A DNA stretch of 64,000 bases, from NCBI GenBank assembly GCA_951813395.1, contig OX638356.1, positions 2,554,501-2,618,500 on the forward strand, written 5' to 3'. This document shows positions 39,639 to 44,765 of the stretch, in pieces. Made by a program: the position numbers and the translations under genes. This DNA comes from Longimicrobiales bacterium. Its GTDB lineage: Bacteria; Gemmatimonadota; Gemmatimonadetes; Longimicrobiales; Gaopeijiaceae. Within the stretch, counting starts at the first letter, position 1, and every line of letters starts with the position of its first letter. A model generated the notes under the pieces. The model had not been told where the DNA came from and did no database searches. It saw only the letters and a list, made by a program, of their open reading frames with translations.

Positions 39639-39883
39639 CTGGCGAAACTCCTGCGTGGGTGGGCGCTGCAGGATGACGTTGGGGCGCCGGGGGGTGCCCG
39701 GCAAGGTTGTTCGGGGGTGAGCGGGGACCCGCCAATGCGGTTACGGTGCGTTGGCGCGTCTTCAGCTTCGGCGTGCCCGGCCTAATCTGGCCGTTTCCGA
39801 TGAACGTCAGTAAAAGCTGGCATGGCGAACAAAACCCGAATACATTAACTTCAACCAACAACTTCACTCAGCCTGGAGGACCC

Positions 39884-40702
39884 TTGCCCGACCGTAGCGC
39901 GATCGAATGGACCGACGCCACGTGGAACCCGACCACGGGTTGCACCCGGGTATCCGCCGGTTGCGACAACTGCTACGCCGACCGGCTCTCCAGAAGACTG
40001 CTGTCTGCCACCTACCTTGCCCGCCTTCCGGTCGTGGACACGTTGGAGAACCGGCACGACCCGTTTGCGGTTCGTGTGTGGCCGGAGCGACTGACGGTGC
40101 CACGGTCTTGGAAGAAGCCGCGCCGAGTATTCGTCAACTCAATGTCGGACCTCTTCCATCACGATGTCCCGGAAGACTTCGCCCGTGAGTGCTTCCGGAT
40201 AATGCTCGAGGTTGATCGGCACATCTACCAGGTGCTGACCAAGCGCCCAGCCAGAGCTGCCAGATTCGTGAAACGGCACACCGATCTGCTCCCGCGCGGG
40301 CTTCCAGGACATATATGGATCGGCACCTCGGTGGAGGATCAGTCGGTAGACTACCGGGTTCGACACTTGTTGGCAGTACCTGCCGCCGTCCGGTTCCTGA
40401 GTTGCGAGCCGCTCATTGGGCCGCTCGACCTGAGTGCGTACATGAGCGAGGTAGTCAACCACGATGAGCTTCACTGGGTGATAGCGGGTGGTGAGAGCGG
40501 AAACGGGGCCAGGCCGCTGGATCCGAAGTGGGCGCGGGGTCTTCGGGATCAGTGCCGGACGGCCAGAGTGCCTTTCTTCTTCAAGCAGTGGGGGGGACGG
40601 ACCCCGAAGGCGGGTGGCCGGGAGCTGGATGGGACCACCTGGGATCAATATCCGAAGTCGGGATGGGCGTTGGCCGAGGAGGATCTGAGTGGCAGCGCCT
40701 AA
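39884..40702 (+). CDS. DUF5131 family protein (phage Gp37/Gp68-like, three-Cys motif)
   Basis: A 272-residue protein. TTG 39884 is taken as the start because GGAGGA lies 4 bases upstream and the product then begins with the family's usual SAIEWTDATWNPTTGCTRVS. Three cysteines with spacing C-x6-C-x2-C (GCTRVSAGCDNCYADRLSRR) resemble an iron-sulphur or zinc site of the radical-SAM type. Other family segments are RVFVNSMSDLFHHDVPEDF, IYQVLTKRPARAARFV, IWIGTSVEDQSVDYRVRHL, RFLSCEPLIGPLDL, WVIAGGESGNGARPLDPKWA and PFFFKQWGG. The reaction is not established. It overlaps the tcmP-type gene by 14 bases, the conserved pairing for this family. Confidence 0.85.
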   Translation: MPDRSAIEWTDATWNPTTGCTRVSAGCDNCYADRLSRRLLSATYLARLPVVDTLENRHDPFAVRVWPERLTVPRSWKKPRRVFVNSMSDLFHHDVPEDFARECFRIMLEVDRHIYQVLTKRPARAARFVKRHTDLLPRGLPGHIWIGTSVEDQSVDYRVRHLLAVPAAVRFLSCEPLIGPLDLSAYMSEVVNHDELHWVIAGGESGNGARPLDPKWARGLRDQCRTARVPFFFKQWGGRTPKAGGRELDGTTWDQYPKSGWALAEEDLSGSA

Positions 40703-41807
40703 AGCGACGCTCTGGACCAGGGATGCCCACACGGAGGGGAAGCATCTGGTGCTGGAACACTACTTGAACGCGTGGTTTCCGATACTCGGAATGGGCAACC
40801 GGAACGGTCGCATTCTCTTCGTCGACGGGTTTGCCGGGCCGGGCGAATACGAGGGTGGAGAACCGGGCTCTCCGGTGGTTGCCATGCGGGTGCTCGCCGA
40901 GCACTCCGCCAAGTCGATGATAAACGCCGAGGTGGTGTTTTTCTTCATTGAGAACGATCCTCGTCGAGCTGGAAACCTGAGAGATCACGTGGATCGCTGG
41001 CGTCCGAAGCTGCCCGCGAACGCGAACGTGCATGTACGAGAGGGATCATTCGATGTGTCCATGAAGGACGTCCTGGACGACCTGGACGAACAGGGCAGAC
41101 GAATAGCCCCGGCCCTTGTAATGATCGACCCGTTTGGTGTAAAGGGAATGCCGATGGCGGTCATCCGCCGGATCATGGCCAACCCGAAGTGCGAGGTGTA
41201 CGCGAGCTTCATGTGGGAATCGATGAACCGGTTCGTTTCGGAGCCCGAATTCGAGGGTCCGTTGAACGAGCTTTTCGGGTCGGCAAGTTGGCAAGAAGCA
41301 AGGCGATTGGACGGGGGCGAGCGGAAGGACTTCCTGCACGGGTTGTACCAGCGCCAATTGAAGGACGCAGGTGCCAAGCAAGTCGTTCACTTCCATCTTT
41401 TTGCCGGCAACCGGCTGAAGTACTCCATCTTCTTCGGAACCCGCCACACCAAGGGTTCGGACCGAATGAAAAAGGCCATTTGGAAGGTCGCACCGTGGGG
41501 AGATTTCGCGTTTCGGGGTGGAAGACAGGACCAGCTGGTTTTACTGGGGTTGGACACCCCGGACCTCAGGCCGCTCCAGCGCCAGTTGCAGGATCATTAT
41601 GGCAGCCAAGGGTGGGTGACCGTACACGATGTCCTGGAGTTCGTCAGGTCCGATGAGACCATCTACCACGACACGCAGGTGAAGAAGCCAGTATTGAAGC
41701 CCATGGAGCAAAACGGACTACTTCGCGTGGACGAAAACACGCGTACACGGAAGTGGACCTACCCCAACGGCTGCCAGCTCAGATTCGAACCCCACGCTAC
41801 GTCGTGA
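40689..41807 (+). CDS. tcmP: Three-Cys-motif partner protein
   Basis: A 372-residue protein starting at GTG 40689, with GAGGA about 8 bases upstream and within the end of the DUF5131 gene. The family signature is clear: KHLVLEHYLNAWFPILG, GRILFVDGFAGPGEYEGGEP, GSPVVAMRVL, ALVMIDPFGVKGMPMAVIRR, YSIFFGTRHTKGSDRMKKAI and KWTYPNGCQLRFE. The VDGFAGPG and MIDPFG segments resemble methyltransferase nucleotide-binding and catalytic loops, so nucleic acid modification is conceivable but unproven. TcmP is defined by its pairing with the three-Cys protein; both are often found on phages and mobile islands. The function of the pair is unknown. Confidence 0.85.
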   Translation: MAAPKATLWTRDAHTEGKHLVLEHYLNAWFPILGMGNRNGRILFVDGFAGPGEYEGGEPGSPVVAMRVLAEHSAKSMINAEVVFFFIENDPRRAGNLRDHVDRWRPKLPANANVHVREGSFDVSMKDVLDDLDEQGRRIAPALVMIDPFGVKGMPMAVIRRIMANPKCEVYASFMWESMNRFVSEPEFEGPLNELFGSASWQEARRLDGGERKDFLHGLYQRQLKDAGAKQVVHFHLFAGNRLKYSIFFGTRHTKGSDRMKKAIWKVAPWGDFAFRGGRQDQLVLLGLDTPDLRPLQRQLQDHYGSQGWVTVHDVLEFVRSDETIYHDTQVKKPVLKPMEQNGLLRVDENTRTRKWTYPNGCQLRFEPHATS

Positions 41808-43062: not shown

Positions 43063-43146
43063 ATGGGTCGTGCCGGGCTGGAAAGTATTCTGTTATATTC
43101 GGATTTCCAGAATCGAACAAATTGCCGTAAACCGAGCCCCAACGCC

Positions 43147-44157
43147 ATGCCGCCGAAGCGACGAGGCCGCCCGGCCCGCCGGGAAGTCTACAGTCGGCTG
43201 CGATCCGACGTGGCGGAACTGTGGGAGCGGTTGGGTGGCTTGCCAAGCCCGCAAGACGCTGCCGGAATCTGGCGCGAAATCTGGTATCGGGAGGCCCATC
43301 ATTCCACCGCCATCGAGGGCAATACTCTGGTCCGGAAGCAGGTCGAGCTACTTTTGGCGGAGGGGCGAGCCGTCGGCGACGGAGAACTTCGGGAGTACCT
43401 GGAGGTCCGGGGCTACGCGACAGCGGCCGAGTGGGTGTACCGGCAGGCGGTCAACCGGTGCGGGCTCAGTCACCCGGGGGCCATCCTGAGCCTCGCCGAA
43501 GTGCGGCAAGTCCATCACACGGCGCTGTCGCCGGTCTGGGAAGTGGCTCCACACCCCGACGCCACGGACCGCGAGACCCCCGGCAACTTCCGTGAACATG
43601 ACATCCGGCCGTTCCCCGGGGGAATGACTCCGGTTTCGTGGCCACTGGTGTCCGCGGAGATGGAGACCTGGATCGAGAAGGTCAATCAGCTCGATCCTGT
43701 CCCGCTGGACTTCCCCGAGCACCTGGCCGAAGCCCACTGCCGGTTCGAACAGACGCATCCGTTCCTCGATGGCAATGGACGAACGGGACGCCTGCTTCTC
43801 AACCTGATCCTCGTCCGGCTCGGTTACCCGCCGGCGATCATCTACAAACGCGAGCGGACACGATACCTCAATGCCCTCCGGAAAGCGGACCGGGGTGAGC
43901 CGGGACCGCTGGGCGAGATGCTTGCCCGGGCGATTCTCGACAACCTCTACCGATTCGTGATTCCCGCGGTCGCCGGTCCGGCCCGCCTGGTTGCCCTCAG
44001 CGCGCTCGCGACGCCGGAATTGAACGCTTCGGCGCTACGAGCGGCGGCTGGGCGCAGTCGGCTGCGGGCGGTCCGCAACGCGAGCGGTCGCTGGCGCAGC
44101 TGCCGTGCCTGGGTGGAGGAATACCAGGCGAGTCGATACCGCAGGGATCGCGGTTAG
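43147..44157 (+). CDS. Fic family protein (class II, self-inhibited)
   Basis: A 336-residue protein. ATG 43147 is preferred over an in-frame ATG at 43063 because the AT-rich 43081-43140 stretch resembles a leader. A winged-helix-like N-terminus carries the inhibitory motif S53-T-A-I-E57-G-N, which in class II Fic enzymes blocks ATP gamma-phosphate binding. The catalytic FIC loop is H204-PFLDGNGRTGR. The family transfers AMP (or other NMP) to target hydroxyls. The substrate is probably an intracellular protein. A TATATT box (43094-43099) precedes it but no good -35 box was seen. It is convergent with the downstream toxin-antitoxin pair. Confidence 0.9.
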   Translation: MPPKRRGRPARREVYSRLRSDVAELWERLGGLPSPQDAAGIWREIWYREAHHSTAIEGNTLVRKQVELLLAEGRAVGDGELREYLEVRGYATAAEWVYRQAVNRCGLSHPGAILSLAEVRQVHHTALSPVWEVAPHPDATDRETPGNFREHDIRPFPGGMTPVSWPLVSAEMETWIEKVNQLDPVPLDFPEHLAEAHCRFEQTHPFLDGNGRTGRLLLNLILVRLGYPPAIIYKRERTRYLNALRKADRGEPGPLGEMLARAILDNLYRFVIPAVAGPARLVALSALATPELNASALRAAAGRSRLRAVRNASGRWRSCRAWVEEYQASRYRRDRG

Positions 44158-44179: not shown

Positions 44180-44515
44180 TTATTCGAAAAGCTCGGCGTG
44201 GGTGCCAGCACGGACGAAGTTGATCGAGCCACCCGGCTTCGGTGAATCATCGACCTGATAGATCAGAAGAAAGTCGCCACCGATGTGGCATTCGCGGTGA
44301 TTCGCCCACGTTCCTCTCAAGGCGTGGTCCCTCCGCTCAGGACCGAGCGGGGCCTCATTGGCGATGAGGTGGAGCATGACCGCCTTGAGTCGATGCATGT
44401 CGTACCGCCCCGAACGCGAAAGCCGCTCCCAGTCCTTGAGAAATTTCCGCGTGAAGTCCACGCGCCGAGGCGGGCGCGTCCGCCTACTGATCGCTGTTTT
44501 TTTCAAGCTCCGCAA
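44180..44515 (-). CDS. YafQ/RelE-type toxin
   Basis: A 111-residue protein matching the YafQ family of mRNA-cleaving toxins: DFTRKFLKDWERLSRSGRYD, RLKAVMLHLIANEAPLGPER, DHALRGTWANHRECHIGGDF, LLIYQVDDS and the C-terminal INFVRAGTHAELFE, with the conserved His of ..GTHAELF used in RelE-fold catalysis. The first about 18 residues (MRSLKKTAISRRTRPPRR) are an extra basic stretch. A GTG at 44461 would give a protein of usual size starting just after the antitoxin stop, so the true start may be there. It overlaps the antitoxin by 32 bases if 44515 is used. Confidence 0.88.
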   Translation of the reverse strand: MRSLKKTAISRRTRPPRRVDFTRKFLKDWERLSRSGRYDMHRLKAVMLHLIANEAPLGPERRDHALRGTWANHRECHIGGDFLLIYQVDDSPKPGGSINFVRAGTHAELFE

Positions 44516-44765
44516 ACATGTCGTCCGCGCTGGCGAACCGGGCCGTTCCCGCGCTCATCATCTCCTCCGACTCGGCCATCGCCTGGCGGGTCTGAGCGTT
44601 CGGTACCTTGAGTTCGAGCGGGAAGGCCTGATCGACCGCGATTCGGTGGAAGAACAGCCGCACGGCCTCCGAGGCCGTCATCCCCATGGCCGTCAGCGCC
44701 GCCGTCGCCTTTCGCTTCATCTCCGTGTCCATCCGGACGTGGAGCATCGAACTGTGCGTCTTCAT
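44484..44765 (-). CDS. RelB/DinJ-family antitoxin
   Basis: A 93-residue protein with a ribbon-helix-helix N-terminus (SMLHVRMDTEMKRKATAALT, AMGMTASEAVRLFFHRIAVD), the classical DinJ/RelB pattern with the IALTxxxAxxxFF-type helix, and a C-terminal helix (ASADDMFAELEKNSD) that would wrap the toxin. A strong AGGAGG precedes ATG 44765. It neutralises the YafQ-type toxin and probably represses the operon by binding the palindrome at 44778-44793. Confidence 0.9.
   Translation of the reverse strand: MKTHSSMLHVRMDTEMKRKATAALTAMGMTASEAVRLFFHRIAVDQAFPLELKVPNAQTRQAMAESEEMMSAGTARFASADDMFAELEKNSDQ

Follow-up and report, generated by a model that had tools for sequence, protein, structure and literature searches.

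The gene for a DUF5131 protein stands behind predicted LexA (SOS) boxes in three phyla, and in each of them the box is of the type that matches the lineage. These boxes are what is new here; the gene pair that DUF5131 forms with TcmP was already a PADLOC candidate. Judged from sequence, SOS control is the strongest signal we obtained, and it points to DNA damage. Our preferred reading, which we hold with about even confidence, is that DUF5131 is a radical-SAM enzyme, induced by SOS, whose substrate is nucleic acid that has been damaged or altered, most likely DNA, and that TcmP is its SAM-binding, RlmJ-like partner. In the accessible text of the open-access literature, we found neither an assigned function nor a link of the family to LexA beyond the Mycobacterium tuberculosis cluster discussed below; the term DUF5131 was not found there, and TcmP had passing mentions only.

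The gene pair and its predicted LexA box

The window, by which we mean the whole 64,000-nucleotide stretch of Longimicrobiales DNA that was analyzed, carries the following features.

39826..39840, minus strand: LexA (SOS) box of the Gemmatimonadota type, TTCGGGTTTTGTTCG (TTCG-N7-TTCG); best position weight matrix (PWM) site of the window and an exact match to the pattern
39875..39879, plus strand: GGAGG, likely ribosome-binding site of DUF5131; read from the sequence, 4 nt 5' of the TTG
39884..40702, plus strand: DUF5131 protein, radical-SAM-like, 272 amino acids, TTG start; PF07505 (E 3.3e-90), AlphaFold model (pLDDT 88.5) and its fold
39941..39973, plus strand: C20-x6-C27-x2-C30 motif, putative 4Fe-4S ligands; conservation and alignment with PA0069/COG1533
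40689..41807, plus strand: TcmP, SAM-methyltransferase-like with a C-terminal winged-helix-like segment, 372 amino acids, GTG start; TIGR04474 (E 7.6e-54), AlphaFold model (pLDDT 92.5) and its fold

Translation together with Pfam and NCBIfam matches confirmed what the first-pass annotation had observed, namely a DUF5131 gene reading from a TTG, followed by TcmP, and the C-x6-C-x2-C site it had named is exact (C20, C27, and C30). The DUF5131 protein scored 302.3 bits against PF07505, where the Pfam gathering score is 28.9, and also matched PHROG 2045 (2e-95); TcmP scored 183.4 bits against TIGR04474 ("three-Cys-motif partner protein TcmP"), where the NCBIfam cut-off is 53. The two reading frames overlap by 14 nt, and each family has one copy in the 4.09-Mb genome. 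Because the in-frame ORF continues upstream as far as 39707, the TTG is only the likely start of DUF5131. A scan for the sigma-70 consensus gave no promoter-like site around this start. Further along the window, 2.4 kb 3' of TcmP, the minus strand at 44180-44765 encodes a toxin of the YafQ type (PF15738, E 1.8e-26) and an antitoxin of the RelB/DinJ type (E 1.3e-15), and a Fic/DOC protein (E 6.5e-15) is encoded at 43063-44157 on the plus strand between a dicarboxylate symporter gene and this toxin-antitoxin pair.

The predicted box sits 43 bases 5' of the TTG and is the top PWM position on both strands of the whole window (17.0; next best, 14.1). Its second half is imperfect (TTCGC), and its score lies below those of most training boxes. 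Exact TTCG-N7-TTCG occurs three times in the window, where 2.8 occurrences would be expected; the bare pattern is therefore no rarer than chance, and the weight of the box rests on its position and on the relatives. We derived the Gemmatimonadota box from the promoters of relatives, where the direct repeat TTCG-N7-TTCG precedes lexA in 28/28 cases and recA in 28/30; a search of the open-access literature for a Gemmatimonadota LexA box found no paper. Across the loci from which it was read (L197-L256), this box is a direct repeat rather than a palindrome, and the spacing of its TTC elements is the same as in the alphaproteobacterial box. Most of the Gemmatimonadota genomes searched (L197-L226) had, in addition to the strong LexA-like match, a weaker second one scoring about 100 bits.

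The alphaproteobacterial LexA box is GTTC-N7-GTTC, and the actinobacterial box is GAAC-N4-GTTC; these two, like the gammaproteobacterial, cyanobacterial, and PafBC motifs, were taken as known consensus motifs. We searched each motif from -150 to +20 of DUF5131 starts, which were placed by HMM alignment rather than taken from annotation. The alphaproteobacterial box preceded DUF5131 in 10/18 Alphaproteobacteria (0.24 expected) and 0/26 Actinomycetota, the actinobacterial box in 8/26 Actinomycetota (0.22 expected) and 0/18 Alphaproteobacteria, and the Gemmatimonadota box in 6/10 Gemmatimonadota (0.16 expected) and 0/44 loci of the other two lineages. The remaining predicted gene starts of these loci served as a control and had the lineage box at 1/211, 2/293, and 3/111 (6/615 in total). 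At the positive loci, a LexA box of the host lineage lies in the DUF5131 promoter region, as in SOS regulon promoters, and common descent alone is an unlikely source of boxes of three different types.

The strict box is missing at 30 of the 54 DUF5131 starts of the three lineages, and these counts come from the closest relatives (80 genome loci), not a random sample, and related sequences among them are non-independent. They exclude four box-bearing loci, two with no class assigned (L036 and L043) and two labeled as other phyla (L006 and L079), as well as one Gemmatimonadota-labeled locus that was near a contig end or otherwise uncounted. Four relatives with DUF5131 proteins 64-83% identical to that of the window (L003, L004, L005, and L008) have no TcmP alongside; three of these solo loci (L003, L004, and L008) keep the exact Gemmatimonadota box, and in L005 the best PWM site lies just 5' of DUF5131. 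L006 is a MAG labeled Gammaproteobacteria whose DUF5131 is 63-64% identical to that of the window and stands behind a Gemmatimonadota-type box, a case of mis-binning or transfer. Among viral copies, 5/31 paired loci had a box (about 0.5 expected) and 0/43 solo DUF5131 did. No box of the four tested types was found before TcmP at the convergent loci. The cyanobacterial box had no occurrence in the set scanned; there, the PafBC core motif was found upstream four times against 2.55 expected and the full motif not at all, and we dropped PafBC as a candidate.

Predicted folds of DUF5131 and TcmP

C20, C27, and C30 are invariant in 67/67 aligned DUF5131 relatives and are the only three cysteines that are; the C-x6-C-x2-C spacing holds in 164/164 homologues scanned from genomes and viruses. 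Also invariant in 67/67 are Y31, the GGESG stretch at 202-206, K120, R121, K234, and Q235. A structure predicted from the 67 sequences (pLDDT 88.5) is a partial TIM barrel whose best structural matches are radical-SAM enzymes. In a Foldseek search of the PDB, the top five matches, at E 5.9e-4 to 4.9e-3, were all to spore photoproduct lyase, and a second structural aligner (VIA) gave six entries of the same enzyme at Z 13.1-13.5 over 201-203 residues (rmsd of the best match, 3.1), followed by viperin (Z 11.3), RlmN (10.6), and lipoyl synthase (10.4). The predicted fold therefore supports the "radical-SAM look" noted at first pass for the three-Cys site: its closest counterparts are radical-SAM enzymes, with spore photoproduct lyase foremost.

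The likeness to spore photoproduct lyase is a distant one. Both have a three-Cys site near the N terminus of the barrel, but sequence identity is about 10%, and the spacing in DUF5131 is C-x6-C-x2-C where the lyase has C-x3-C-x2-C. The hydrogen-donating catalytic cysteine of the lyase may have no invariant counterpart in DUF5131, judging from its position in the lyase and the 67-sequence alignment. Pfam and NCBIfam scans gave no match of DUF5131 to spore-photoproduct-lyase family models up to E 1, and a PDB sequence search with the DUF5131 profile returned chance matches only; it was the fold searches that gave the relatives.

Although DUF5131 departs from the canonical CX3CX2C motif, its three cysteines still align with it. 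Aligned by HHalign with 30 PA0069-type radical-SAM proteins, they fall in register by way of a three-residue insert between the first two cysteines of DUF5131 (P 0.0022), and a deeper profile gave P 0.0015 (reversed control, 0.054), DUF5131 and PA0069/COG1533 being colinear over 159-161 columns. The HHalign probability is only 13-17%, so this alignment backs the fold result and cannot stand alone. When the PA0069 profile was itself searched against the PDB, it found SkfB and NifB and not spore photoproduct lyase. One further relative is Radical SAM mobile pair protein A (TIGR04471), by name likewise half of a mobile pair, which matches DUF5131 residues 68-235 (E 5.5e-9); the match scores 35.8 bits, where the cut-off is 355, and the Cys motif lies outside the matched part. 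From these models, we infer that DUF5131 is a radical-SAM-type enzyme and a putative binder of a cluster and SAM.

For TcmP, a structure predicted from 39 sequences (pLDDT 92.5) had RlmJ/DUF519 as its ten best structural matches (Z 16.1-16.8), followed by CmoA (14.5). Motif I is conserved, GFAGPGxY-like, and of the SAM-binding type, and together with the fold, it bears out the earlier description of this protein as methyltransferase-like. TcmP shares the fold, motif I, and the motif IV residue D147 with RlmJ, the 23S rRNA A2030 N6-methyltransferase. It differs from RlmJ in an extra C-terminal segment, which by predicted secondary structure resembles a winged helix, and in motif IV, which reads D147-P-F-G150 here and D147-[PSQT]-x-G150 across the 39 aligned sequences, with D147 invariant. 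DPPY-type motif IV is absent from all 39, so that N6-adenine methylation should not be assumed. Pfam and NCBIfam scans gave no match of TcmP to the RlmJ family model; a weak profile match (E 0.09) covers the RlmJ motif-I region. We take TcmP to be a probable SAM-binding, RlmJ-like partner of DUF5131.

These folds bear on a second reading, in which the pair modifies RNA: TcmP would act on rRNA or tRNA, as RlmJ does on rRNA, and DUF5131 would complete or undo the modification, so that translation is adjusted while the SOS response is on. The RlmJ/DUF519 matches and the weak motif-I match speak for it, as does the presence of RlmN, a radical-SAM enzyme of RNA, among the fold matches of DUF5131. 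Against this, TcmP consistently lacks DPPY, and spore photoproduct lyase stands about 3 Z units above RlmN. We regard an RNA-modifying pair as unlikely.

Pairing, solo copies, and phage loci

Among the best 80 genome loci, TcmP adjoined DUF5131 in 67, DUF5131 was solo in 8, and 5 were too near a contig end; co-directional, TcmP-first, and convergent arrangements all occurred. At the level of whole genomes, DUF5131 was present in 53 of 249 Gemmatimonadota, TcmP over its cut-off in 39, and both in 38; of 199 Sphingomonadaceae, 33 had DUF5131 (32 over the cut-off), 18 had TcmP, and 18 had both. Thus, 56/57 TcmP genomes of the two clades have DUF5131, and in the sole TcmP-only genome (G053), TcmP lies 111 bases from a contig end. 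DUF5131 occurs without TcmP in 15/53 Gemmatimonadota and 14/32 Sphingomonadaceae (29/85 genomes in total), and we counted 20 changes between pair and solo states on the tree. Where TcmP is present, DUF5131 nearly always is too, and not the reverse. One published list (PMC5649159) has COG4422 among the entries enriched in sponge symbionts. Clusters of neighbouring genes at the genome loci showed a spurious effect of overlapping frames.

In mycobacteria, TcmP was over the cut-off in 30/198 Mycobacterium genomes, and DUF5131 adjoins it in 28/30 fetched loci. Two genomes, one with a near-full TcmP (G603) and one with a TcmP fragment (G581), have no DUF5131 match anywhere, so the rule that TcmP needs DUF5131 has a real exception. 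One mycobacterial genome (G561) has an actinobacterial LexA box, recA, and then TcmP on the same strand with DUF5131 converging on it, a RecX-like match being located between recA and TcmP. This order equals that published for M. tuberculosis, as far as the excerpts of the two papers give it: Rv2735c shares a transcript with recA and recX (PMC3062782), and Rv2734, Rv2735c, recX, and recA form one cluster, described in those excerpts only as mitomycin C-responsive (PMC5057432). From order and strand, Rv2735c would be TcmP and Rv2734 would be DUF5131; a three-Cys-motif partner domain is noted for BCG_2748c in excerpts of another report (PMC7387457). The 80 genome loci showed no enrichment of recA or lexA near the pair, the exceptions being L070 (RecA at 5.4 kb) and L024 (LexA at 7.7 kb), and adjacency to recA is thus a lineage feature rather than a general one.

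The first-pass annotation had called the pair conserved across phages and bacteria; this holds for DUF5131 and fails for the pair, which is rarer in viruses than DUF5131 alone. Single-sequence searches of 50,697 phage records, which give lower bounds, found at least 160 DUF5131 and at least 6 TcmP. Of 84 viral and phage loci, 43 had a solo DUF5131, 32 were paired, and 9 were too near an end (solo in 43/75 assessable loci). Solo viral copies retain the residues invariant in paired copies, including the putative catalytic ones, and carry inserts after residue 139 (24/43), 238 (17/43), and 189 (10/43); inserts of comparable size were found at only two places among 98 paired DUF5131 copies. The insert loops may mark the face that TcmP covers or replaces.

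The dependence of TcmP on DUF5131, with DUF5131 so often solo in genomes and in viral loci and pair and solo states changing repeatedly on the tree, could suit a toxin with its antidote, in which TcmP marks nucleic acid in a harmful way, DUF5131 takes the mark off again through radical chemistry, and the solo DUF5131 of phages serves as counter-defense. However, the same asymmetry also fits TcmP as a later step or as a protein that needs DUF5131 as a scaffold, and G603 lives with a near-full TcmP and no DUF5131. We consider this explanation very improbable.

We inspected 12 phage regions, 2 paired and 10 solo (7 of the 10 judged by annotation alone). Several of the solo copies have genes for recombination or replication close by (RecE/RecT/RusA; SSB with a processivity factor; exonuclease/ERF/SSB; RecT with a helicase; a DNA polymerase III beta homologue), and the remaining ones are surrounded mainly by genes for methylases or HNH endonucleases or by unknowns. 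The neighbours conserved around solo DUF5131 in viruses, named by eye, were C5-methylase-like (5/43), DUF4326-like (4), and DnaB-like (4); three larger neighbour clusters look like spurious overlapping frames. In the Bipper and Labrenzia V1 phages (L258 and L260), the solo DUF5131 is followed directly by a gene with the annotation "ACSH domain containing protein" (probably ASCH), and it is possible that this gene is an alternative partner of DUF5131.

The first-pass interpretation as a whole is partly supported; of its remaining suggestions, joint modification of nucleic acid is plausible, and a defense or anti-defense role is a possibility. As a phage-defense system, the pair would ride on prophages or mobile DNA, sense or modify invading nucleic acid, and be primed by SOS as infection damages DNA. 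Both proteins match the paired PADLOC candidate models PDC-M30 and PDC-M41, and the two components are adjacent, as those models have them; in the Gordonia phages WelcomeAyanna and Angelique, the pair has the integrase on one side and the immunity repressor on the other; the distribution of DUF5131 in the two clades is patchy; and in excerpts of a P. aeruginosa survey (PMC10855318), 68.8% of 32 PDC-M30 strains were phage-resistant, which is an association only. PDC-M30 and PDC-M41 are, however, candidates only, the accessible text of the open-access literature yielding no experimental proof for them, phage protection included. Around the pair, PADLOC families matched at most 3/140 neighbours each, against 2/140 far from it, and the near matches were mostly to generic kinase and methylase families. 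Defense alone also leaves unexplained the lineage-matched LexA control and the solo DUF5131 in gene blocks of lytic phages. The SOS placement points to damaged or altered DNA over an ordinary defense system, and we think the defense reading rather unlikely.

The comparison of neighbours used random picks below 700 amino acids (140 from the 294 genes predicted near the pair and 140 from the 236 predicted far from it) and showed no clear PADLOC enrichment, and we set aside a defense island; the test is weak because it considered only the 25 most-matched families and because kinases and methylases match each other's families. When the near set was scanned with Pfam, no family recurred beyond 3/140.

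A proposed damage response and its reach

If SOS-induced radical-SAM action is the right reading, DNA damage in this organism would lead to RecA-driven loss of LexA from 39826-39840 and so start transcription of the operon. With its 4Fe-4S cluster, DUF5131 would next direct a deoxyadenosyl radical at a base that is damaged or altered, most likely in DNA among the nucleic acids, and TcmP may supply substrate binding or a second, SAM-dependent step, in whichever order and of whatever nature these reactions would prove to be.

A bolder version, which we put forward tentatively and think somewhat doubtful, is that the family represents a new and widely shared SOS pathway of direct reversal. Here, an enzyme of the spore-photoproduct-lyase type would repair or rewrite a DNA lesion in vegetative cells, a methyltransferase-like partner would mark or read the site, and phages would borrow DUF5131 as a single gene to shield the phage DNA, often in a form whose loops are extended by inserts at three sites that are short in paired copies.

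Both DUF5131 and TcmP occur widely and are carried as unknowns, and the LexA placement in three phyla opens to experiment what the first-pass annotation had described as a pair with no known reaction. If true, our reading would provide a context for the unexplained third gene of the M. tuberculosis recA operon, and the known chemistry of DNA repair would be extended by a radical-SAM enzyme that is induced by damage and works outside spores.
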